Shown piece by piece: positions 3,090 through 28,502 of a stretch of 64,000 nt of DNA; position 1 is the stretch's first letter, and each line of letters starts with the position of its first letter. Origin of the DNA: Flavobacterium gelidilacus DSM 15343 (GTDB taxonomy: Bacteria; Bacteroidota; Bacteroidia; Flavobacteriales; Flavobacteriaceae); contig NZ_KE383903.1 of NCBI RefSeq assembly GCF_000422685.1, forward strand, positions 263,402-327,401, given 5' to 3'. The notes under the pieces were generated by a model that worked only from the letters and a program-made list of their open reading frames with translations, did not search any database and was not told the origin of the DNA. The translations under genes were made by a program, and so were the position numbers.

Positions 3090-3716
3090 TTAAGTTGAAA
3101 ACATTTTATACAAAGATGAAATTGCTACAATTCCAGTAACTGCAGCAATTAAAAAATTGATGTTATTGGTAATAAAACCTACTTTATGTTCTACTTTTTT
3201 GAATAAAATCGCATATAAGTAGAAAATAAAATAAGTTCCTAAAGCAGCTGCAATGGAAAAAATTATAATTGACAACAAAGAAAAATCAAACACATTTTTA
3301 GACGCCAGTGTTAAACTAACAAATGCGTAATATGGAATTGCAAACATGTTTAAGGACGACAATGTGATTCCGTAAATAAGTCTGTTTTTCTTGTCTTTTA
3401 TTTCTACTTCAACTTGAGGTTTTTTAGCTTTTAATCCAGCATAAAGAAATGCTATGGTCAAAATAATAAAAATAACGACTCCAAATTTCTTTAAATTCTC
3501 ACTAATCACTGGGTGACTGTCTAAAAATTTTGCGAAATAAAGTCCCGTAAAACATTGAATTAAAACTACCAAAACAGCTCCATAGGCGAATAGTAAAGCT
3601 TGTTTTTTATTTTCGGTTATGCTTAATTTTGCTATGGTCATGTTTAACATTCCTGGTGCTATGATTCCAACTGCAGCAATTAAAAAACCTAAAAGAAAGG
3701 GTAGAATTATACTCAT
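3090..3716 (-). CDS. LysE/RhtB-family exporter
   Basis: A 208-residue inner-membrane protein with about six hydrophobic segments. Its N-terminus (FLIAAVGIIAPGMLNMTIAK) matches the LysE/RhtB-type pattern of a first transmembrane helix ending in a PG motif. These proteins export amino acids or related small molecules by proton exchange; the substrate here is unknown. It lies directly upstream of the alkyltransferase-like gene and about 9 bases after the stop of trmB on the same strand. The order trmB, this gene, ATL suggests one minus-strand unit. Confidence 0.8.
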   Translation of the reverse strand: MSIILPFLLGFLIAAVGIIAPGMLNMTIAKLSITENKKQALLFAYGAVLVVLIQCFTGLYFAKFLDSHPVISENLKKFGVVIFIILTIAFLYAGLKAKKPQVEVEIKDKKNRLIYGITLSSLNMFAIPYYAFVSLTLASKNVFDFSLLSIIIFSIAAALGTYFIFYLYAILFKKVEHKVGFITNNINFLIAAVTGIVAISSLYKMFST

Positions 3717-3725
3717 ATTTGTTTT

Positions 3726-4400
3726 CTATTTAATTCTGAATTTAATATATGTAATCGCTTTATTTTTCTCTAAATATTGATTTTCATAAAACGTTTGAAT
3801 ACTTGTAACTTCTGAAGGAGAACCTTCGTTAACATAGATATCATGATTGGCATAAATTACTTCATGACCTTCACCATGCAATAAACCTAGCGTGTAACCG
3901 TGCATGAATTCACTGTCAGTTTTTAGATTCATTATTCCATTATCTTTTAAAATTCTTTTATAGCGTTGTAAAAACTCAGTGTTTGTCATTCTGTGTTTAG
4001 TACGCTTGTATTTTATTTGTGGATCTGGAAAAGTAATCCAAATTTCATCTACTTCATTTTCAGCAAAACAATTTTCTATTAACTCTATTTGAGTTCTTAA
4101 AAAGGCTACGTTTTTCATTCCTTCATCGACTGCTGTTTTTGCTCCTCTCCAAAATCTTGCTCCTTTAATATCAATACCAATAAAGTTTTTATCTGGACTA
4201 TGCTTTGCTAAACCTACGGAATATTCTCCTTTTCCGCAACCTAATTCCAAAACTAATGGATTATCATTTTTGAAAAACTCACTATTCCATTTCCCTTTTA
4301 AAGGAAAACTTCCTGATGTTACTTCTTCTCTCGTTGGTTGAAAAACATTTTCAAATGATTCGTTTTCCTTAAAGCGCTTTAATTTATTCTTACTTCCCAC
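3726..4400 (-). CDS. trmB: tRNA (guanine-N7-)-methyltransferase
   Basis: A 224-residue SAM-dependent enzyme that methylates G46 of tRNA to m7G. It shows the SAM-binding motif LELGCGKGEYS and FIGIDIKGARFWRGAK. The TrmB signature IWITFPDPQIKYKRTKHR includes the Asp-Pro-Gln and basic tRNA contacts. A longer reading frame runs back to 4568, but I chose the GTG at 4400 because the protein then begins VGSKNKLKRF, as flavobacterial TrmB proteins do. The extension would also overlap the divergent phosphoesterase and looks non-conserved. GTG is an uncommon start in this window. Confidence 0.92.
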   Translation of the reverse strand: MGSKNKLKRFKENESFENVFQPTREEVTSGSFPLKGKWNSEFFKNDNPLVLELGCGKGEYSVGLAKHSPDKNFIGIDIKGARFWRGAKTAVDEGMKNVAFLRTQIELIENCFAENEVDEIWITFPDPQIKYKRTKHRMTNTEFLQRYKRILKDNGIMNLKTDSEFMHGYTLGLLHGEGHEVIYANHDIYVNEGSPSEVTSIQTFYENQYLEKNKAITYIKFRIK

Positions 4401-4502
4401 TACAATTAAATTTTTGGTAAAATTACTAAAAATAAAGTTTTGATAATCTTTATATAACTTTATTCCCTTCAAAAAGCTCTTATTTTGTAAAAATATTTTA
4501 TT

Positions 4503-5321
4503 TTGAAGAAAAGAAAAGTAGAATTGGTCGTTATTTCGGATGTACATCTTGGAACTTATGGATGTCACGCAAAAGAATTATTAGCTTATTTATCATCTAT
4601 TAAACCCAAAACATTAATTCTTAACGGAGATATCATTGATATTTGGCAATTTAGAAAATCTTATTTTCCTCAAAATCACCTAAAAGTAATTAAAAAAATA
4701 ATTTCTTTAAGTTCAAAAGGAACAAAAGTGTATTACTTGACAGGGAATCATGATGAGTTTTTGAGAAAATTTACAGATTTACATTTAGGAAATTTAAGCC
4801 TTCTGAATAAATTAGTTTTAGATTTAGACGGAAAGAAAGCCTGGATTTTTCATGGTGATGTTTTTGATTCATCGATTACTCATGCTAAATGGCTGGCAAA
4901 ATTAGGGGGTTGGGGTTATGACATGTTAATTTTAATCAATCGCTTTATCAATTGGGTTTTAGCTAAAATGAATAAAGAACCTTATTCGCTTTCTAAAAAG
5001 ATTAAAAACAATGTGAAATCTGCCGTTAAATTCATTACTAATTTTGAAAGTGTCTGTACAGAATTAGCCATTGAAAACAAGTATGATTTTGTAATTTGTG
5101 GACACATTCACGAACCAAAAATGGAAAAAATAAAAACAGAAAAAGGTGAAACGATGTATTTAAATTCGGGCGATTGGATTGAAAATTTAACCGCTTTAGA
5201 ATACAACAATAAAAAGTGGAAAATGTACAAACACGATATTCATAATGTAGTTGTTGAAGAAGAGAGTTTTGAATATGAAAATAAACTAGCCGAACAATTT
5301 ATTTCAGTCTTAAAAAATTAA
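4503..5321 (+). CDS. UDP-2,3-diacylglucosamine-diphosphatase-like metallophosphoesterase
   Basis: A 272-residue calcineurin-like phosphoesterase. The metal-binding motifs occur in order: SDVHLG, GDIIDIW, GNHDE, FHGD and CGHIHEP. The arrangement fits the LpxH/LpxH2-like group, which cleaves UDP-2,3-diacylglucosamine in lipid A synthesis, but the exact substrate is inferred. The start is the TTG at 4503: an in-frame TAA ends at 4490, no ATG follows before the first motif, and homologues start MKKRK. It is divergent from trmB and 21 bases from the glycosyltransferase, with which it probably forms an operon. Confidence 0.85.
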   Translation: MKKRKVELVVISDVHLGTYGCHAKELLAYLSSIKPKTLILNGDIIDIWQFRKSYFPQNHLKVIKKIISLSSKGTKVYYLTGNHDEFLRKFTDLHLGNLSLLNKLVLDLDGKKAWIFHGDVFDSSITHAKWLAKLGGWGYDMLILINRFINWVLAKMNKEPYSLSKKIKNNVKSAVKFITNFESVCTELAIENKYDFVICGHIHEPKMEKIKTEKGETMYLNSGDWIENLTALEYNNKKWKMYKHDIHNVVVEEESFEYENKLAEQFISVLKN

Positions 5322-5342: not shown

Positions 5343-6386
5343 ATGAAAAAAATAATAGTTGCACCACTAAATTGGGGATTAGGTCATGCTACAAGATGTA
5401 TTCCAATAATTCAAGGGTTATTGGATAATGGGTTTGAACCCGTTATTGCTAGTGATGGAGTTGCCTTAGAATTATTAAAAAAAGAATTTCCTAAACTTAT
5501 TTCTTTTGAATTGCCTTCTTATGACATTCAATACGCTGTAAAAGGAAAGAACTTTAAATGGAAAATGATTGCGCAATTGCCAAAAATCATTTCAACTATA
5601 AAAAAAGAAAGGAATAAAATCAATAAAATTCTAGAAGCCTATAATTTTGATGGCATAATTTCAGATAATAGATTAGGTGTTTACTCTAAAGATGTGCCTT
5701 CGGTTTTTATTACCCATCAATTAAATGTTTTGACGGGAAACACTTCTTGGTTTACTACAAAATTGCATAAAAAATACATCCAAAAATTCAATGAATGTTG
5801 GGTTCCTGATGTTGAAAATGGTCAAAATTTATCTGGTAAATTAGGTCATCCAACAGAGTTAATTGGAAATGTAAAATATATTGGCCCCTTAAGTAGGTTG
5901 TGTAAAAAACCGATGCCTATAAAATATGATTTGATGGTTTTACTTTCTGGACCAGAACCTCAACGTACTATACTGGAGCAGAAAATTATTGCTGAATTAG
6001 AAAAATATACTAAAAAAGTAGTTTTTATCAAGGGTATTATTGAAAAAAGTCAAACTAAAATAGAAAAAGGAAATGTTACCTATTTTAATTTTATGAATAG
6101 TATCGAACTTGAAACTACATTTAATGAAAGCAATCATATTCTTTGTCGTTCTGGTTATACAACTGTTATGGATTTAGCTAAATTGAATAAAAAAGCTTTT
6201 TTCATTCCAACTCCAGGTCAGTATGAACAAGAATATTTAGCGAAAAAATTTGATAGAGAAGGAATCATTCCAACCTGTAAGCAAGAAAAATTTACAATTC
6301 AAAAATTAGATAAAATTGCTTTTTATAAAGGATTTACCAATTATAGCAAAAAAATAACTTGGAAAGAATTATTTGACCTTTTCTAG
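5343..6386 (+). CDS. glycosyltransferase family 28-like (MurG-like fold)
   Basis: A 347-residue predicted glycosyltransferase. The N-terminal Rossmann domain begins KKIIVAPLNWGLGHATRC, the glycine-rich acceptor loop seen in MurG-like enzymes. The C-terminal half carries CRSGYTTVMDLAKLNKKAFFIPTPGQYEQEYLA, the nucleotide-sugar-binding segment (Ser-Gly-x-Thr, then Pro-x-Pro-x-Gln-x-Glu-Q). The donor and acceptor sugars are unknown. It follows the LpxH-like gene closely, which hints at envelope glycolipid or polysaccharide work. Its 3' end overlaps the convergent histidine kinase gene by 18 bases. Confidence 0.8.
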   Translation: MKKIIVAPLNWGLGHATRCIPIIQGLLDNGFEPVIASDGVALELLKKEFPKLISFELPSYDIQYAVKGKNFKWKMIAQLPKIISTIKKERNKINKILEAYNFDGIISDNRLGVYSKDVPSVFITHQLNVLTGNTSWFTTKLHKKYIQKFNECWVPDVENGQNLSGKLGHPTELIGNVKYIGPLSRLCKKPMPIKYDLMVLLSGPEPQRTILEQKIIAELEKYTKKVVFIKGIIEKSQTKIEKGNVTYFNFMNSIELETTFNESNHILCRSGYTTVMDLAKLNKKAFFIPTPGQYEQEYLAKKFDREGIIPTCKQEKFTIQKLDKIAFYKGFTNYSKKITWKELFDLF

Positions 6387-7412
6387 AGTAAAAGAGAACT
6401 CAGAACCAACACCATATTCGCTTTCAATATAGATTTTTTCGTCATGACCTTCTACAATGTGTTTCACAATAGCTAAGCCTAAACCTGAACCACCTTCGCT
6501 ACGAGCACCACTTTTATCAACTCGATAAAACCGTTCAAATAAGCGTGATATATGTTTCTTTTCGATTCCTTCCCCGTTGTCAGTAATTCTCACAATTATT
6601 TTATTGTTGACTAAATCCTCAATACTTACTTCTGTTGTACCGTTTTCTTTTCCATATTTAATAGAATTCATCACTAAATTAGTAACGACTTGTTGAATTT
6701 TCTCTTGATCCGCAAAAACAAGAATTTTTGAATTGTATTTTGTATCAAAAGTTAACGTAATATTCTTCTTAGAAGCACGCATTTCGAGTAAATCAAATAC
6801 ATTTTGAACAACTTCTACAATATTAAATTCTGATAATTCTAAATTAATATCACCCGTTTCAAGCTTAGTAATCATATCTAAATCTTTTACAATATAAATA
6901 AGACGTTCGACTCCTTTTTCAGCACGTTGTAAATATTTTTTTCGGATGTTTTTGTCATCCATTGCTCCGTCAAGTAATGTTAACAAATAACCTTGAACTG
7001 TAAAAAGTGGTGTTTTTAATTCATGTGAAACGTTGCCTAAAAATTCGCGTCTGTATTCTTCACGAATTTTTAAGGTTTCTATTTCTAATTTTTTGTCTTT
7101 AGCAAACTTCTGAACTTCTCTTGTCAAAGTTGCCATATCTGTAGTTATAGGTTGATTTCTAAAAGAGCTTGTTTCTAATAAAGAAACATCGTCATATATC
7201 TTTTTAACTCGTTGATAAATGAATTTTTCAACTCTATATTGCAAAACAAAAAAAGAAAAAAGAAATGTAGAAACAACTACAATTATAATATTAACAAAGG
7301 ATATTTCAATAATCGTAAATTGTAGTAAAAGCAATAAAGCAAACAAGAATAAACTAATATAAATAGAAGATATTGTTGCAAATTTATATGATTTTTTGAA
7401 ATTAAATTTCAT
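6369..7412 (-). CDS. phoR: PhoR-like sensor histidine kinase
   Basis: A 347-residue kinase with two membrane helices (about residues 13-32 and 38-57) and almost no periplasmic domain. HisKA has His130 in FLGNVSHELKTPL. The HATPase domain shows NLVMNSIKYG, DNGEGI, LFERFYRVD and GGSGLGLAIVKHI. In PhoR-type systems the phosphate transporter, rather than a sensor domain, often sets kinase activity, which fits the small N-terminus. It overlaps the stop of the upstream response regulator gene by 11 bases, so translation is likely coupled. The PhoR assignment rests on the partner, the divergent receptor gene and the 11-bp repeat arrays. Confidence 0.82.
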   Translation of the reverse strand: MKFNFKKSYKFATISSIYISLFLFALLLLLQFTIIEISFVNIIIVVVSTFLFSFFVLQYRVEKFIYQRVKKIYDDVSLLETSSFRNQPITTDMATLTREVQKFAKDKKLEIETLKIREEYRREFLGNVSHELKTPLFTVQGYLLTLLDGAMDDKNIRKKYLQRAEKGVERLIYIVKDLDMITKLETGDINLELSEFNIVEVVQNVFDLLEMRASKKNITLTFDTKYNSKILVFADQEKIQQVVTNLVMNSIKYGKENGTTEVSIEDLVNNKIIVRITDNGEGIEKKHISRLFERFYRVDKSGARSEGGSGLGLAIVKHIVEGHDEKIYIESEYGVGSEFSFTLEKVK

Positions 7413-8094
7413 TAAATTCTATTTTATAACCTACACCTTTAATAGTTTTGAAAAAATCGTCTCCAATTTTTTCTCTTAATTTTCTAATATGAACATCGAT
7501 TGTTCTTCCTCCTACAATCACTTCATTACCCCAAACTTTATCTAAAATTTCATCTCTTTTAAAAACTTTACCGGGTTTTGATGCTAAAAGATAAAAAAGT
7601 TCAAACTCTTTTCTTGGTAAAATTATTTCTTGTCCTTCTTTAACAATTTTATATTCTTCACGATTAATTTCAATGCCATTAACATTTAAAACATCTACTT
7701 TTTCTTCTTTTTCTTTTAATCTTCTTAAAAGTGCTTTTACTTTACTGACAAGAATCTTTGGCTTTATAGGTTTTGCTATATAGTCGTCTGCACCAGCATC
7801 AAAACCAGCTAATTGAGAATAATCTTCTGAACGCGCTGTTAAAAATGTGATGATAGTATTCTCTAATTCAGGTATTTTTCTGATGTTCTCACAGGCTTCA
7901 ATACCATCCATTTCTGGCATCATAACATCTAAAATAATTAAATTTGGAAGTTCTTTTTTTGCCTTCGCGACTGCTTCCCTACCATTAGTTGCTGTAATTA
8001 CTTGATAGCCTTCTTGAGCTAAATTATATCCAACAATTTCTAGGATATCTTGCTCATCATCAACCAATAAGATCTTAATTTCTTTTTTTTTCAT
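7402..8094 (-). CDS. phoB: PhoB-like winged-helix response regulator
   Basis: A 230-residue OmpR/PhoB-family regulator: receiver domain with acidic pair DDE near residue 12, phospho-acceptor Asp56 (LIILDVMMPEMDG) and the conserved Lys in IAKPIKPK, then a DNA-binding winged helix (residues about 130-230; VIVGGRTIDVHIRKLREKIG). I start it at the ATG at 8094; the frame runs back to 8163 but those residues look non-conserved. Family members bind direct repeats spaced 11 bp, and such repeats lie in the adjacent divergent promoter region (8177-8235) and again at 11116-11141. Confidence 0.87.
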   Translation of the reverse strand: MKKKEIKILLVDDEQDILEIVGYNLAQEGYQVITATNGREAVAKAKKELPNLIILDVMMPEMDGIEACENIRKIPELENTIITFLTARSEDYSQLAGFDAGADDYIAKPIKPKILVSKVKALLRRLKEKEEKVDVLNVNGIEINREEYKIVKEGQEIILPRKEFELFYLLASKPGKVFKRDEILDKVWGNEVIVGGRTIDVHIRKLREKIGDDFFKTIKGVGYKIEFNEI

Positions 8095-8172
8095 TATAGT
8101 AAGAAAGTTGTGTTTTGAATTGTAAAGGTAAAGATAAAATAAAATTTTCAATCCTCTTAACAATTATTTAAT

Positions 8173-8238
8173 CTGTTAACCATAACATAACACTTACTGA
8201 GTCTATTCATAACAAAGAAGTAACACAAAAGTAATTTT
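8173..8238 (+). promoter_or_regulatory. 11-bp-phased TAAC repeat array (putative PhoB box)
   Basis: TAAC occurs at 8177, 8188, 8210 and 8221, and TAAT at 8232. All are separated by 11 bases or multiples of 11; the 8199 position is degenerate. The last three sit 36, 25 and 14 bases upstream of the -7 element at 8246. The E. coli Pho box also repeats every 11 bp. Binding by the adjacent regulator is inferred. Confidence 0.6.
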
Positions 8239-8245
8239 ATGACAC

Positions 8246-8253
8246 GTTCTTTG
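8246..8253 (+). promoter_or_regulatory. weak -7 element of the TonB-receptor promoter
   Basis: GTTCTTTG matches only the TTTG half of the Bacteroidetes TANNTTTG element and has no good TTG box at -33. The phased repeats occupy that position, as expected for an activator-dependent promoter. The ATG follows at 8275. Confidence 0.45.
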
Positions 8254-8274
8254 CACAAAATATAAAACAACAAA

Positions 8275-11043
8275 ATGAAACTAAAATTTTTATTATTTAC
8301 CTTACTGTTATCATCTTTCTGTTTTGCACAAAAAGCAACCGTTTCTGGTCTTATACTAGATAAAGAATATGACAACGAACCACTAGCATTTGCTAATGTT
8401 ATGTTGAAAGGTACTTCACAAGGTACTTCAACAGACGAAAATGGAAAATATAGTTTAAGCGTTTCTGCTGGAAATTATACTTTAGTTGTTGGTTTTTTAG
8501 GGTATAAAACTGTTGAAATTCCTTTTACAGTTAAAGCAAATGAAAAAAAAGTAATTAATTACACTTTAGAAACTGAAGGTGTAATGCTAGAAGATATAGT
8601 TTTAACCGCTACAGTAACTCAAGAAAGTGTTAAAGCTTTATTGCAAGAACAACAAAAATCTGTAGAAATCAAACAATCTATTGGTGCTGAAGAAATCTCA
8701 AATAAAGGAATTAGTGATGTTGCAGCTGCCGTAACAAAAACAACTGGTATTACTAAGCAAGAAGGTTCTGGAAGTATATATGTTAGAGGATTGGGTGATA
8801 GATATAATTCAACAACAATGAATGGTTTGCCGTTACCTTCAAACAATCCTTCTAGAAAAAATATCAATTTAGAAATTTTCTCTACTGATATTGTAGAATA
8901 TATTGGAATCGACAAAACATATAACTACAAAAACTACGGTGATTTTGCTGGAGCTAATATTGATATTGTATCTAAAAATTATAAAGGTGATGGTTCTTTA
9001 GAAGTTGGAACAGGAATGGGTGCAAATTCAAATGCAGTTCAACAAAATAAATTCTTCTTACAAGATGGACCTAGTTTTCTTGGATTTAGTAATGAGCCAA
9101 TACCTAATGATCCTTTATCTGGATATAATTTTTCTACAAGTTGGGATAAACAAGCATCTACACCCGTAAACAGTTCTTTTTACATTAGAGGTGGAGATTC
9201 TTATTCATTTGGAGATTACAGTAAAATAAGTTTCTTTTTAAATGCTTCTTTTGATAATGGATATACTTATAAAGAAGGAGTAAGAAGAGGAAGTGTAAAC
9301 GTTCAAGGGCTTGCTATTAAAAACTTGAACAGAAAAGCTTATGAATATCAAACTAATTCTAATGCGATGGCAAACATTAATTACAGAATTAACGAAAATC
9401 ATAATATTCGTATCAATTCAATGTTAATTAATTCAGCTACACAAAAACATGAAGAATTTAACGGAATTATAGATGCAAATGGTTCGGCTCAAAATGGTGG
9501 TGGTTTTATTCGTCGTTCTACATTTGACAAAACTTATTTATTAGTTAATCAACTTTTAGGAGATCACAAGTTTGGAGAAAGAACTAAATTTGATTGGGGA
9601 TTATCATACAACACACTTACTAATGTGATTCCAGATCGTATGCAAAATACAATTGTCCCTTTTTTATATGATGATCCAAGTTCTCGTTTAGTAGCATCTG
9701 ATGTAAATCCATCGGATAACCAAAGATATTACCAAGAAATGACTGATGATGAAATTGCAGGTAACTTTAATTTATCTTATAAGTTTGGGAAAAGCGAAAA
9801 TGGTGATTATAAGGGAAAATTAATTGCAGGTTACAGTGCACGTTATAAAGAAATTAATTTTGATGCGACACAAATCAATTTAGCAGTTACAAGAAGTAAT
9901 TTTGCCTCTCAACCAACAGTTGATTTAAACAACCTAGACGGCTATTTTAATCAAGCAAATCTTGATGCTAACTTCTTTTCATTAAAAACATTTAGAGGAG
10001 ATATTACAAATGCTAATGCTTTAACGCCACAAAACTTTAATGGACAACAAATTATTTCAGCCGGTTTTGGTGCAATTGAATATCAATTTACTCCAAAATT
10101 ATATGTAATTGGTGCATTCCGTTCAGAATTTATCATTCAAGATATTGATTATGACACTTCTTTAAAACAAGGAAAAAATAAATTTGACACTATGGAGTAC
10201 TTACCTTCATTATCGGCAAAATATGAATTAAACGAAAAACAAAATTTAAAATTAGCAGCGAGTAAAACCTATACTTTACCACAATTTAAAGAAAGAGCTC
10301 CTTTCTTATATGAAGAAGTTGGACAATCCTATTTCGGAAATCCATTTTTATACAATTCAACCGATTATAATTTTGATTTGAAATGGGAATATTTCCCTAA
10401 AGGTGGAGAAGTAATTTCGTTAACAGGTTTTGGAAAATATATTCAAAATCCAATTAATGAAGTAACAGTAGCTTCTGCTACAAATGATATCTCTTGGGTA
10501 AATTCTGGTGAAAAAGCAGTTGGAATTGGAGCAGAATTAGAAATAAGAAAAGATATATTTAGTTTTGAAGGATCAAATGACAAAAAAACAAATATATCAT
10601 CTGGTTTAAATGTTTCTTACTTACATACAAATCAAGATTTGGATTCAGAAAAGGTAAAAAAAGAAACTAACGGATTAGGAGTTGCGTTTACAAATAGTAA
10701 TTCAAGATTAACAGGTGCATCTGATTTATTAGTTAATGCTGATGTTAGTTTAAACAAAAGCTTCTCTGCTGATCAGTCTTTAACAGCAACTTTATCTGGA
10801 GCCTATTTCTCTGATAGAATTTATGCATTAGGTGTAACAGGAAAAGGTGACCTTGTAGATAGTGATGTTATTGCCTTAGATTTTATTCTAAAATTTAGGT
10901 TAAATAAAAATCTTGGTTTTGGTCTTAGTGCAAAAAATCTAACAGATCCAACAATTGAAAGAAAACAAAATATTCAAAATGTAGTTGTTGACTCTTATAA
11001 AAAAGGTAGAAACTTTAGTTTTTCAATGAAATACTCATTCTAA
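8275..11043 (+). CDS. TonB-dependent outer-membrane receptor with carboxypeptidase-regulatory-like N-domain
   Basis: A 922-residue receptor. Signal peptide to about residue 19 (SSFCFAQ), a carboxypeptidase-D-regulatory-like beta-sandwich at about 22-108 (GTSTDENGKYSL), a plug domain (SIYVRGLGDRYNSTTMNG) and a 22-strand-type beta-barrel to the C-terminal aromatic ending FSFSMKYSF. It takes up a ligand across the outer membrane with TonB/ExbB/ExbD energy. There is no SusD gene beside it; the next gene encodes a surface-type lipoprotein. It is divergent from phoB and carries phased repeats in its promoter, so I infer phosphate-starvation control and a phosphorus-containing substrate. The ligand itself is unknown. 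Confidence 0.9.
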   Translation: MKLKFLLFTLLLSSFCFAQKATVSGLILDKEYDNEPLAFANVMLKGTSQGTSTDENGKYSLSVSAGNYTLVVGFLGYKTVEIPFTVKANEKKVINYTLETEGVMLEDIVLTATVTQESVKALLQEQQKSVEIKQSIGAEEISNKGISDVAAAVTKTTGITKQEGSGSIYVRGLGDRYNSTTMNGLPLPSNNPSRKNINLEIFSTDIVEYIGIDKTYNYKNYGDFAGANIDIVSKNYKGDGSLEVGTGMGANSNAVQQNKFFLQDGPSFLGFSNEPIPNDPLSGYNFSTSWDKQASTPVNSSFYIRGGDSYSFGDYSKISFFLNASFDNGYTYKEGVRRGSVNVQGLAIKNLNRKAYEYQTNSNAMANINYRINENHNIRINSMLINSATQKHEEFNGIIDANGSAQNGGGFIRRSTFDKTYLLVNQLLGDHKFGERTKFDWGLSYNTLTNVIPDRMQNTIVPFLYDDPSSRLVASDVNPSDNQRYYQEMTDDEIAGNFNLSYKFGKSENGDYKGKLIAGYSARYKEINFDATQINLAVTRSNFASQPTVDLNNLDGYFNQANLDANFFSLKTFRGDITNANALTPQNFNGQQIISAGFGAIEYQFTPKLYVIGAFRSEFIIQDIDYDTSLKQGKNKFDTMEYLPSLSAKYELNEKQNLKLAASKTYTLPQFKERAPFLYEEVGQSYFGNPFLYNSTDYNFDLKWEYFPKGGEVISLTGFGKYIQNPINEVTVASATNDISWVNSGEKAVGIGAELEIRKDIFSFEGSNDKKTNISSGLNVSYLHTNQDLDSEKVKKETNGLGVAFTNSNSRLTGASDLLVNADVSLNKSFSADQSLTATLSGAYFSDRIYALGVTGKGDLVDSDVIALDFILKFRLNKNLGFGLSAKNLTDPTIERKQNIQNVVVDSYKKGRNFSFSMKYSF

Positions 11044-11069
11044 ACAATTAGTTAACATAAAAGAAATAT

Positions 11070-11107
11070 TAGGGATGCTTTTTAAAAGCATCCCTACTTA
11101 TTTTTAA
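11070..11107 (+). terminator. rho-independent terminator after the TonB receptor
   Basis: TAGGGATGCTTTT at 11070-11082 pairs perfectly with 11084-11096 (13 bp), followed by a T-rich tract ending near 11107. It separates the receptor from the lipoprotein gene, which has its own promoter. Confidence 0.8.
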
Positions 11108-11111
11108 TAAA

Positions 11112-11144
11112 CTCATAACATTCAGATAAATTTCAGTTAGCATG
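11112..11144 (+). promoter_or_regulatory. second 11-bp-phased repeat array (putative PhoB box)
   Basis: TAAC at 11116, TAAA at 11127 and TAGC at 11138 recur every 11 bases. They lie 36, 25 and 14 bases upstream of the -7 element TACATTTG at 11152. These offsets are the same as in the receptor promoter at 8210-8235. The distal repeat also shares TCATAACA with that site. Confidence 0.58.
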
Positions 11145-11151
11145 CTAATCC

Positions 11152-11159
11152 TACATTTG
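11152..11159 (+). promoter_or_regulatory. -7 element of the lipoprotein promoter
   Basis: TACATTTG fits the Bacteroidetes TANNTTTG consensus exactly. No TTG box lies at the usual distance; the phased repeats take its place. The start codon follows at 11193. Confidence 0.5.
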
Positions 11160-11192
11160 CCTTAACAAATTAAAAAACACAAAACACACACA

Positions 11193-12338
11193 ATGAAAAA
11201 ACTTATTTTATCTACGTTAGCAATTGCTGCCTTAGCATTTACATCTTGTTCAAGAGATGATAATTCAACAGAAACACCAAGTGGTGTAGTTAACATTGAT
11301 GCTAATGATTTTAAAGGGACTTTAACAAGTGGACAGACAACAACTTTAGATCCTTCTAAAACTTACAAATTAACAGGTTCATTTGTTGTTGAAGCTGGTG
11401 CTTCATTAACTATTCCTGCTGGAACTAGAATTGAAGCTGTCGGTGGAACATCTTCATACATAGCTGTTGCACAAGACGGTTTAATCTATATTACTGGAAC
11501 TGCTACAAACCCTGTGGTTATGACAAGTGGAAAAACAGTTAAAGCAACAGGAGACTGGGGTGGATTAGTTATCTGTGGAAGAGCTACAACAAACAAAGGA
11601 GGTTCTAACGGAGAAACTGCTACTGCAGAGGTTTCTGATTTAACTTATGGTGGTACTGAAAACAATGATAGCTCTGGAGTTATCAAATATTTAAGAGTAG
11701 AATATACAGGTGCAGCATTTAATGCAGATAAAGAATTTAATGGTATCTCATTATTTGGTGTTGGTTCTGGTACTACATTTGAATATATTCAAGCTTATAA
11801 AAGTGGTGATGACGGAATCGAATTCTTCGGTGGAGCGGTTAATGCTAAATATTTAGTAGCTTTACATAGTGAAGATGATGCATTAGACTTTGCTGATGGT
11901 TTCACTGGTTCTATTGAATATGCTTATGTAAAAGATGTTGCTAAAGCTGGTATTGAAGGATCAAACAATGGAGATAATGGTGCTGCTTTACCAAGTACAA
12001 ACGTTACTTTAAAAAATATTTCACTTGTAAAAGGTGCTTTAGCTGGTCAAGAGCACGGAATGTACATCAAAGAAGGTGGTGGAAAATGGGCTGGTCAAAA
12101 TATTTACATACAAGACTTTACAAAAGGAATTAAAATTAACTCTTCAGATATTCCTGCTAATGCAAGTGTAACTAATGGTTTTGTAACATTTAGTCCTATT
12201 CAGTTTTCTAATATCTCTGGAGATTTTTCTGAATATACAGGTCCTAATACGACTTACATGACTCAAGGTACTGCAACTGGTGCTGGAAACAATGGAGATA
12301 CTCCAATTTGGGCTGCAGGATGGACAACAGGTTTGTAA
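11193..12338 (+). CDS. surface lipoprotein, beta-helix-like, paired with the TonB receptor
   Basis: A 381-residue lipoprotein: signal sequence with lipobox ending FTSC (Cys19), then a Ser/Asp/Asn/Thr-rich tether. The remainder is rich in Gly, Thr and Asn, with repeated short strands (for example GLIYITGTATNPVVMTSGKT and DDGIEFFGG/DDALDF), which suggests a right-handed parallel beta-helix. I do not recognise an enzymatic motif. Its own terminator-isolated promoter carries the same phased repeats as the receptor, so the two are probably co-regulated, and the protein may bind or process the ligand at the cell surface. It could also be an adhesin-like or carbohydrate-binding protein. Confidence 0.75.
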   Translation: MKKLILSTLAIAALAFTSCSRDDNSTETPSGVVNIDANDFKGTLTSGQTTTLDPSKTYKLTGSFVVEAGASLTIPAGTRIEAVGGTSSYIAVAQDGLIYITGTATNPVVMTSGKTVKATGDWGGLVICGRATTNKGGSNGETATAEVSDLTYGGTENNDSSGVIKYLRVEYTGAAFNADKEFNGISLFGVGSGTTFEYIQAYKSGDDGIEFFGGAVNAKYLVALHSEDDALDFADGFTGSIEYAYVKDVAKAGIEGSNNGDNGAALPSTNVTLKNISLVKGALAGQEHGMYIKEGGGKWAGQNIYIQDFTKGIKINSSDIPANASVTNGFVTFSPIQFSNISGDFSEYTGPNTTYMTQGTATGAGNNGDTPIWAAGWTTGL

Positions 12339-12445: not shown

Positions 12446-12784
12446 ATGAAAAAAAACTACATTTTAACTTTAATTATGGCATTTTGCTTCTTTACTTTCG
12501 ATGGTTATTCGCAAGAAAGCAAGTCTGCCATGGGTAATTCTCAAGAACCTACTATTGAAGGATTATCAATCTACCCGAACCCCGTTTCTAACGGAAAATT
12601 GTACATTACATCAAAATTAGGATCAGAAAAGACAATCGAAATTTTTGATGTACTAGGTAAAAAAGTATTTGATACTACCACAGGTGTAAAAGAAATTAAT
12701 ATTTCTAACTTAAATGCTGGTGTTTATATCATCAAAATTAGAGAAAAAGACGCTACAGCTACAAGAAAACTAATTATCAAGTAG
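12446..12784 (+). CDS. minimal secreted protein with type IX sorting domain
   Basis: A 112-residue protein made almost only of a signal peptide (to about residue 23, FDGYSQ), a 15-20-residue linker and a type A T9SS C-terminal sorting domain. The hallmarks are LSIYPNPVSNGKL, FDVLGKKVF, INISNLNAGVYIIKI and the C-terminal TRKLIIK. I start it at the ATG at 12446; the frame opens at 12413 but the extra residues would precede the signal peptide. With no passenger domain the mature product would be a short peptide once the sorting domain is cleaved, which is odd. It may be a relic of a larger cargo gene or a genuine small secreted factor. Confidence 0.82.
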   Translation: MKKNYILTLIMAFCFFTFDGYSQESKSAMGNSQEPTIEGLSIYPNPVSNGKLYITSKLGSEKTIEIFDVLGKKVFDTTTGVKEINISNLNAGVYIIKIREKDATATRKLIIK

Positions 12785-12857
12785 TTAGACTCTTTTTTAT
12801 ATTATTAATCCTATATTATTTTTTTGTTAACTCCTTTTTTGTTAGCCAAAAAACCAT

Positions 12858-12865
12858 TACTTTTG
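12858..12865 (+). promoter_or_regulatory. -7 element for the lamin-tail T9SS protein
   Basis: TACTTTTG matches TANNTTTG. A TTG at 12839-12841 within a T-run stands 16 bases upstream as a possible -33 box. No 11-bp-phased array is present here. Confidence 0.45.
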
Positions 12866-12889
12866 CCTTATAATTTAAAATCAAAAAAA

Positions 12890-13702
12890 ATGAAAAAACT
12901 TTACTTTTTATCTTTATTATTAGGTTCTGCAATTGGTTTTGCTCAAACTAATGTTGGAATTACTGGAAATGTTGGTGGTGTTTACATTAATGAAATTCAT
13001 TATGATAATGCTTCAACAGATGTTGGTGAATTTATTGAAGTTGCTGGTCCTGCTGGAACAGATTTATCAACTTATACTTTAACCCTTTACAACGGTTCAA
13101 ACAACACTTCTTATGCTACAATTGCTTTAACAGGTTCAATTCCAAATGAAGCTAATGGTGTAGGCGCAGTTTCTTTTGACGCAACTGGAATACAAAACGG
13201 AGCTCCTGATGCAATTGCTTTATCTAAAACAGGAACAGGTTCTACGAATGTGCAATATTTAAGTTACGAAGGAGTTATGACTGCTCCTGCAGTAGATGGT
13301 CCAGCAATGGGTTTAAACTCAGTAGATATTATTGCAATGGAAACTAGTACTACTCCTATTGGTTATTCTTTAGAGTATGATGAAACTTCTATGGCATGGA
13401 TTGTAATAACTGATGATACTCCAGGCTTATTTGCTCAAGGCCCTGTTTTATCAACTAAAACATTTGATGCAATAGCTGGTTTATCTTTATATCCAAATCC
13501 AGTTACTGGAAATGTGTTAAACATTACTTCTGCTGCAAATTTAGATATGAATGTTGCTGTCTTTGATATTGTTGGAAAACAAGTTATCAATACAAAAGTA
13601 ATCAACAACACTTTAAACGTTTCTAGCTTAAACGCTGGTGTTTATATCGTTAAAGTTACTGAAGACGGAAAAACTGCTACTAGAAAATTAGTAGTTAGAT
13701 AA
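12890..13702 (+). CDS. T9SS cargo protein with lamin-tail-like domain
   Basis: A 270-residue secreted protein. Signal peptide MKKLYFLSLLLGSAIGFAQ, then a domain at about residues 28-185 opening VYINEIHYDNASTDVGEFIEV, the typical start of a lamin-tail domain (LTD), a beta-sandwich fold often found on secreted nucleases and phosphatases. A type A T9SS sorting domain ends the protein (LSLYPNPVTGN, NVSSLNAGVYIVKV, TRKLVVR). The ATG at 12890 precedes the signal peptide; the frame extends to 12824 without support. It probably sits on or leaves the cell surface. No catalytic domain accompanies the LTD, so its role is unknown. The two genes before it suggest a surface-uptake locus. Confidence 0.83.
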   Translation: MKKLYFLSLLLGSAIGFAQTNVGITGNVGGVYINEIHYDNASTDVGEFIEVAGPAGTDLSTYTLTLYNGSNNTSYATIALTGSIPNEANGVGAVSFDATGIQNGAPDAIALSKTGTGSTNVQYLSYEGVMTAPAVDGPAMGLNSVDIIAMETSTTPIGYSLEYDETSMAWIVITDDTPGLFAQGPVLSTKTFDAIAGLSLYPNPVTGNVLNITSAANLDMNVAVFDIVGKQVINTKVINNTLNVSSLNAGVYIVKVTEDGKTATRKLVVR

Positions 13703-27833: not shown

Positions 27834-28502
27834 TTACAGAAAACTTATTCCAAAAACAAATCTGTTATTTCCATTTTCTTTAACTGTATTTTCAACTGAG
27901 GCAAAATCTGATTTCCATTTTCCATTTGTGAACGCAAATTCATATCCTAGGTTAGCTCTAATTTTGGTTGATTTGTTTTTAAATAAGTATAATGAAACAG
28001 ATGGGCCAACAAAAAAGACTTGATTTTTTAATGAAACATGACCACTATTATTCAAAGGTTCTAAATCATTTAAATCAATAACGTTATTCTTGTTGTAAAT
28101 ATCCACTTCAGAAGCTGTTGATGAAACATTTAAACCTCCAGTAAAAGCCATTTTTTCTTTGTTTATGAAGTTGTAATGCACTCTTAATCTCGAGGTAACT
28201 CCAATGTTTTGATTTTCCGAATCTCCTTTATCATTTTTTGATAAGAAAAAACCAAATTCTGCATCACCAGAGATTTTATTGCCAAAAACATTCATACCTA
28301 CTTGAAGTTCTGGTATTGTTTGTTTTAATTCTGGTAAATTAGCTGCTTTTAGTTTGTCGTTTAAATCATATTTAATTTGAATTTGAGCGCCAATTCCGAA
28401 ATAAAAATCAACATCAACTTTTTTACCTTGTGTATCTTCAGAAGACTGAGCGATAATAAGACTACTTGAAACTAAAAATAAAAACACAATTGCTTTTTTC
28501 AT
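27834..28502 (-). CDS. outer-membrane beta-barrel protein, unknown role
   Basis: A 222-residue protein with signal peptide (MKKAIVFLFLVSSSLIIAQ) and alternating-residue beta-strands, ending FVFGISFL in outer-membrane-protein style. It resembles small eight-strand porin-family barrels of Bacteroidetes. No ligand motif is visible. It has its own terminator and stands alone. Confidence 0.7.
   Translation of the reverse strand: MKKAIVFLFLVSSSLIIAQSSEDTQGKKVDVDFYFGIGAQIQIKYDLNDKLKAANLPELKQTIPELQVGMNVFGNKISGDAEFGFFLSKNDKGDSENQNIGVTSRLRVHYNFINKEKMAFTGGLNVSSTASEVDIYNKNNVIDLNDLEPLNNSGHVSLKNQVFFVGPSVSLYLFKNKSTKIRANLGYEFAFTNGKWKSDFASVENTVKENGNNRFVFGISFL

Follow-up and report, generated by a model that had tools for sequence, protein, structure and literature searches.

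What do the TAAC repeats that stand before two neighbouring genes of Flavobacterium gelidilacus DSM 15343, one for a TonB-dependent receptor and the next for a lipoprotein, represent? Both genes lie in a 64,000-nucleotide stretch of contig NZ_KE383903.1 (positions 263,402 to 327,401 of a genome of 3.44 Mb in 46 contigs; the whole stretch is hereafter called the window). The original prediction, made from the letters of the window, held that the two promoters share 11-bp-phased TAAC motifs at identical distances from the -7 element, and that these motifs are a candidate Pho box for flavobacteria. Comparison with other genomes indicates that the repeats are very probably a Pho box of a Bacteroidota type, with PhoB as the putative binding protein. 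The proposal gained support from two sides: of 20 Flavobacterium loci chosen by their pstS, 18 had the box, and the orthologues of both genes in F. johnsoniae (Fjoh_0545 and Fjoh_0546) are induced by phosphate depletion. Conservation, more than the two sites themselves, gives the repeats their significance and is the strongest evidence.

Repeats in register at two promoters

Direct reading of the receptor promoter located the predicted motifs at 8210 (TAAC, -36), 8221 (TAAC, -25) and 8232 (TAAT, -14) before a -7 element at 8246, together with the two further motifs that had been placed in the same phase upstream, TAAC at 8177 (-69) and TAAC at 8188 (-58). The step at -47 (8199) reads GAGT and is degenerate, and the full receptor array comprises six steps. 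The lipoprotein promoter, whose site is located 41 bp upstream of the lipoprotein ATG, likewise carries motifs at -36, -25 and -14, and the positions proposed for it (11116, 11127, 11138 and, for the -7 element, 11152) were correct; its three motifs, supposed to be TAAC throughout, read TAAC, TAAA and TAGC. A fourth motif, TAAT at 11105 (-47), was absent from the original list. The Bacteroidota -7 element has the consensus TAnnTTTG, which is present as a whole at 11152 and with just its TTTG half at 8246. The box sequence put forward at the outset, YTCATAACANN, is to be replaced by TTAACATNNNN, in which the conserved half-site is TTAACAT.

A rule demanding at least three of the four TAAC letters at -36, -25 and -14 before TTTG selected exactly 8246 and 11152 on the two strands of the 64 kb. 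The same rule was matched at least twice in 20 of 200 Markov windows (mean, 0.53 matches), and the pair of sites alone is therefore unremarkable. A position profile was then built from the receptor promoters of 38 relatives, with the window excluded. It ranked 8246 first (score 36.9) and 11152 second (4.6) in the window, the third site scoring -0.9; among the 200 Markov windows, 36.9 was reached by none and 4.6 by five, so that the lipoprotein site, on score alone, has about p = 0.025 per 64 kb. With a local-mode profile, R1, the lipoprotein site came third in the window, behind 28171-28207, and in the window genome it came 15th of 24 (E = 2.06), the receptor site being first (E = 2.1e-6); when these 24 loci were scored at full length, the receptor and lipoprotein sites alone were above zero. 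The lipoprotein site is carried by its place 41 bp before the ATG and by conservation, rather than by score.

A receptor match at E <= 1e-100 was found in 114 of 199 family genomes, and 40 of the other 113 receptor genomes were taken (the 39 best-scoring and G061). All 40 had a lipoprotein match downstream of the receptor. Promoters were set in register by a rule that required TTTG and favoured TAAC at six offsets, and four relatives (L034, L036, L047, L053) in which the register was weak or shifted by one base were dropped before alignment. The receptor promoter was gap-free over 84 bp in the remaining 36 of 40 relatives, with six half-sites of consensus TTAACAT at an 11-bp step. Eighteen of the 84 columns were invariant, including half-site letters at -69, -58, -36 and -25; TTTG is present in all 36 because the register rule demands it. 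The aligned consensus reads TAACATT-N4-TAAC at 11-bp steps, with TTTACA at its end, 9 bp upstream of TTTCTTTG, and its best-conserved upstream base is the C of TAAC (2.36 bits at -66 and -22). The expected upstream element of a Bacteroidota promoter is TTTG at -33, and in the aligned relatives that position is occupied by a half-site.

A second set, 80 named loci retrieved by a similarity search with the F. johnsoniae receptor, supplied 79 receptor promoters and 60 separate lipoprotein promoters. The receptor promoters scored above 10 in 78 of 79 cases and above 20 in 72 (lowest, -25.8; shuffled sequences, 0 of 395). For a test of phase, the -7 element was picked by its own letters with the repeats ignored (78 receptor and 58 lipoprotein promoters). 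One shared phase of the eleven held 151 of the 174 motifs at receptor promoters and 101 of the 120 at lipoprotein promoters, counts that are not independent of ancestry and that include a few species overlapping the training set. From promoter to promoter, the number of half-sites varies more than their phase relative to the -7 element. In 72 of the 80 named loci, PhoR was present together with a PhoB relative (60-87 % identity) encoded divergently from the receptor.

Within the genus, R1 matched at E <= 0.01 in 185 of 200 genomes. Thirteen of the other 15 had a receptor match and 12 of them upstream sequence, six of these 12 scoring 9.8 to 22.0, one 2.2 and five below zero. Three Flavobacterium loci (L328, L329, L330), judged by eye, carry the receptor array one step nearer the start, with TAAT at -3 and TAAC at -14 and -25 and the 11-bp phase kept.

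Boxes at phosphate genes

If the repeats are a Pho box, they would be expected at pst, pho and alkaline phosphatase genes, as the original prediction had pointed out. Twenty pst loci were chosen by pstS position alone from the 27 genomes that matched PstS best, and a score of 15, our own choice, was set as the limit. In 18 of the 20, the gene that leads into pstS was preceded by a phase-locked box (L169 and L178 fell short), which bears out the expectation for pst genes. Three further pst loci chosen via profile matches (L129, L130, L133), counted apart, all had the box as well. The same score was exceeded by four of 297 open reading frames (ORFs) of F. johnsoniae: the receptor, oprP, the lipoprotein and FIII. 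As to phosphatase genes, PhoA1 (Fjoh_3249) is without a chain, and a search for PhoX via PF05787 found it in neither of two genomes. In two loci that were compared, the gene leading into pstS encodes a porin-like protein, 25 % identical to the PF07396 porin of F. johnsoniae; the leading gene of L161 gave no match.

The profile was also scanned across the class. Matches at E <= 0.001 were obtained in 49 of 296 genomes, about 0.3 being expected by chance. Of 27 class loci examined, 25 had the match before a gene with a TonB-receptor domain (18), an FI/FII/FIII lipoprotein gene (6) or a pst-type porin gene (1), and two lacked a gene at a suitable distance. The 18 receptor-type genes were assigned by Pfam (11, including a short CarboxypepD protein) or by similarity (7). 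Seven of the 27 loci were in the training family; outside it, 18 of 20 fitted (12 receptors, five lipoproteins, one porin). Since the profile was trained on receptor promoters only, the lipoprotein and porin matches are independent of gene type.

Published expression was related to the boxes in a genome of 6.1 Mb, taken as F. johnsoniae UW101. When phosphate is depleted, Fjoh_0545 is reported to change by log2 8.02, Fjoh_0546 by 9.91, phoB by 3.06 and the glycosyltransferase Fjoh_0541 by 5.42 (PMC8115612). That paper gives expression, and the words 'promoter', 'motif' and 'binding site' do not occur in its main text. Twenty-three induced genes from its Table 1 were located by order and domain in about 0.41 Mb of F. 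johnsoniae (20 regions and L126), and Fjoh_1367, 2225, 2477, 2478, 3187, 4168-4173 and 4577, which were unlocated, were left out. The 297 ORFs were ranked by their best upstream 11-bp chain, a -7 element not being required. Induced genes took ranks 2, 3, 4, 7, 9, 13, 16, 20 and 21, nine of the 25 best chains, with p = 0.0013 for all 23 and p = 0.039 for the 18 outside the phoBR locus. Two regions (L200, L201) were chosen via box matches, and Fjoh_3414, 4721 and 4723 are thus not independent. A list of presumed leader genes, compiled with the ranks already known, gave p = 6.5e-6 for 12 genes and p = 5.4e-5 for the nine without L200 and L201. Beyond the phoBR locus, the support from F. johnsoniae for a box at induced genes is weak. 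At L198:13941-14516, a sigma-factor gene without a clear box heads the strongly induced FI cluster, whose phosphate control may be indirect.

No Pho box for Flavobacterium or other Bacteroidota was described in the literature searched, which was mostly without subscription papers. Elsewhere, a Pho box consists of two 11-nucleotide direct repeats whose letters vary between species, and boxes and phosphate control are not always coupled (PMC4415409). In E. coli, the PhoB sites overlap the -35 element (PMC3348028) and the consensus is CTGTCAT (PMC3465305). The flavobacterial arrays share several features of such boxes, namely direct repeats, an 11-bp step with about seven conserved and four loose bases, overlap with the place of the upstream sigma element and, in the Flavobacterium pstS loci, a position before high-affinity phosphate transport genes. 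Unlike the E. coli box, they have TTAACAT in place of the CTGTCAT half-site, keep a fixed register over as many as six steps and precede a -7 element with TTTG. In the same phylum, Bacteroides fragilis PhoB binds a pst promoter, directly and on a 512-bp pstC fragment (PMC3547664), and the words 'motif' and 'consensus' are absent from the passages available of that paper.

The binding protein and rival explanations

The rival that survives best, although we consider it unlikely, is that another regulator of the OmpR family, ArcA-like or redox-responsive, binds the array and that the link to phosphate is secondary. OmpR-family regulators often bind direct repeats of 10-11 bp, and Riemerella, which belongs to the same order of bacteria as Flavobacterium, has a related motif. 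DNA affinity purification sequencing of Riemerella anatipestifer PhoP gave a motif with TTTAACA as its most conserved letters, which was likened to E. coli ArcA; the targets included Bat and cytochrome genes, and many had no relation to phosphate; in electrophoretic mobility shift assays, the promoter of a TonB receptor was bound (PMC9603813). The Riemerella motif thus shares the half-site letters and the binding of a TonB receptor promoter with the arrays described here, but is reported as ArcA-like, and neither 'direct repeat' nor '11-bp' occurs in the available text of that paper. The low proportion of family-level relatives with adjacent phoBR (see below) and the weak enrichment at induced genes outside the locus also fit a regulator other than PhoB. 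A secondary link to phosphate, however, would sit poorly with boxes before the pst leader genes, before two strongly phosphate-induced genes and beside phoBR in most of the named loci.

A second rival, very improbable, is that the repeats are no regulator site but either A/T-rich bends in phase or an element that serves RNA polymerase in the manner of an UP element. They are A/T-rich and lie on one face of the helix, but bending has no need of the C that is their most conserved upstream base, and the class-wide matches cluster before a few outer-membrane and pst-type genes. Chance, or a recent promoter duplication that left a likeness without function, is the least credible explanation, as the phase is kept at both promoters across many species and the receptor array spans genera of the family, even if Markov windows met the three-offset rule and reached the lipoprotein score at the rates given above.

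Several observations weigh against a Pho box bound by PhoB. The regulator encoded in the window misses both curated cut-offs for PhoB equivalogs (TIGR02154, 214.9 bits against 296.2; NF053854, 208 against 270), these being nonetheless its two best models, and no pstS above the Pfam family cut-off was found in the window genome. PhoB and PhoR are divergent from the receptor in only 10 of the 40 family-level relatives. In F. johnsoniae, the ranking without the two box-found regions gave p = 0.007 for 20 genes and p = 0.15 for the 15 outside the phoBR locus; oprP (Fjoh_0542, L126:5547-6839) has rank 1 and a strong box, yet is not induced (-1.3, p 0.25), and Fjoh_3859, 3249-3251 and 4723, which are induced, have low ranks. 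In Riemerella, pstS is up 8-fold in a phoPR deletion (PMC5399024), which misfits simple activation, and phosphorylation left the binding of PhoP, a candidate orthologue, unchanged.

With these points taken into account, a PhoB-bound Pho box remains our preferred reading, and the array is most likely a docking site for switching on phosphate scavenging, with PhoB proposed as the binding protein from the adjacency of phoBR and from published work on relatives. On phosphate shortage, the PhoR-like kinase would phosphorylate the neighbouring PhoB-like regulator, which would then bind the TTAACATNNNN direct repeats head to tail in 11-bp steps, with one half-site per subunit and two per dimer. The receptor promoter, with up to six steps, could accommodate three dimers. 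The last half-site ends about 10 bp upstream of the -7 element; the E. coli Pho box lies 10 bp from the -10 element. As the half-sites lie at the expected -33 position, the regulator most likely stands in for the -33 element, where it may touch sigma and act as a class II activator.

A further pair of half-sites (TTAACAATTATTTAAT), which reads TTAAC-N7-TAAT, was found at -89 of the receptor promoter. It was present in eight of the 10 relatives with divergent phoBR and in three of the 30 without (Fisher p = 8.1e-5), and is a candidate site for autoregulation of phoB. A fuller model for the class Bacteroidia can be put forward tentatively, as conceivable but short of probable. In it, an unbroken row of three PhoB dimers, phased to the helix, would take the place of the -33 element, and the register to the -7 element would be under tighter conservation than the number of half-sites. 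A separate dimer site at -89, out of phase with the row and retained chiefly next to divergent phoB genes, would allow the uptake genes and phoB to be controlled independently.

The locus and its significance

The features of the window are collected in Table 1. The plcP-like phosphatase and glycosyltransferase genes are followed on the opposite strand by the genes for the PhoR-like kinase and the PhoB-like regulator, and then by those for the TonB receptor and the lipoprotein. Glycosyltransferase, PhoR, PhoB, receptor and lipoprotein have the same order in the PUSIV/phoBR cluster of F. johnsoniae (PMC8115612), which differs in including oprP; the window has none there. No Pfam domain was found in the window lipoprotein, and an Rfam search of 7900-11400 gave no matches.

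Table 1. Promoter elements and genes at the locus, in window coordinates
Feature	Position	Strand	Basis
Receptor array, six 11-bp-phased half-sites	8177..8235	+	Direct reading; profile 36.9; gap-free in 36/40 relatives
Receptor -7 element GTTCTTTG	8246..8253	+	Sequence; family consensus TTTCTTTG
Lipoprotein half-sites TAAT 11105 (-47), TAAC 11116 (-36), TAAA 11127 (-25), TAGC 11138 (-14)	11105..11141	+	Profile rank 2, score 4.6
Lipoprotein -7 element TACATTTG	11152..11159	+	Sequence
Half-site pair TTAACAATTATTTAAT, 11-bp step	8157..8172	.	At -89, out of phase with array
Weak box before plcP-like gene: TAAA 4433 (-47), TAAT 4444 (-36), TAAC 4455 (-25), TTTG 4484	4433..4487	+	Exact pattern
Metallophosphatase, plcP-like (lipid remodelling)	4503..5321	+	Metallophos_2 PF12850; TTG start
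Glycosyltransferase	5343..6386	+	Glyco_tran_28_C PF04101; family and neighbourhood as Fjoh_0541, 62 % identity
PhoR/PnpS-like histidine kinase	6369..7412	-	NCBIfam PnpS 241.8 and PhoR 235.7 bits, both below cut-off
PhoB-like response regulator, divergent from receptor	7402..8097	-	Response_reg and Trans_reg_C; 84 % identity to F. johnsoniae neighbour
TonB-dependent receptor	8275..11043	+	Plug, CarbopepD_reg_2; orthologue of Fjoh_0545 by place and 51 % identity
FI/FII/FIII-family lipoprotein	11193..12338	+	Orthologue of Fjoh_0546 by place and 46-50 % identity

The plcP-glycosyltransferase pair is likely a lipid-remodelling operon, and a weak candidate box lies in phase ahead of it, on far weaker evidence than the receptor and lipoprotein sites. 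Its exact pattern matched five places in the 3.44 Mb (four in the reversed control); that two of these belong to the present locus is suggestive at most. The weak box is not among the best full-profile sites. The stretch that follows the lipoprotein gene (12446-13702) encodes a pair of small proteins with type 9 secretion tails, which were matched in 62 and 61 of the 80 named loci. The window genome keeps phoBR and a phosphate-type receptor without a pstS over the Pfam cut-off, its lone PF12849 match being a LysR-type gene, and phosphate uptake in this organism presumably uses another route.

Two search patterns were rejected. R1 was unsuited to finding the regulon across a genome, as the receptor site alone was significant in the window genome; in F. 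johnsoniae, its matches were the receptor (E = 1.3e-12), a weak one at oprP (E = 0.28) and 24 others, 13 of which lay inside ORFs of our own list. The pattern of three TAAH motifs and TTTG was unspecific by itself (10 matches in two genomes and eight in the reversed control). Two other arrangements of repeats were seen: a partial array TAAT, TAAT, TAAC at 11-bp steps at 28171-28207 of the window (11.7 bits with R1 in local mode), and three perfect TAAC at 11-bp steps with TTTG in phase at C3:47747-47801 of the window genome, in a gap without a downstream gene start.

The response of Bacteroidota to phosphate shortage involves receptors and lipoproteins without a known substrate, often without Pst, and in F. 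johnsoniae the phosphate-responsive loci without known function are tightly repressed under nitrogen and iron limitation (PMC8115612). If the repeats are a Pho box, the regulon would become predictable from sequence across many genomes, and orphan receptors and FI/FII/FIII lipoproteins would gain a phosphate label. The ArcA-like motif of Riemerella would then have another reading, and the arrays would offer a clean test of how activators work on the unusual promoter of Bacteroidota.

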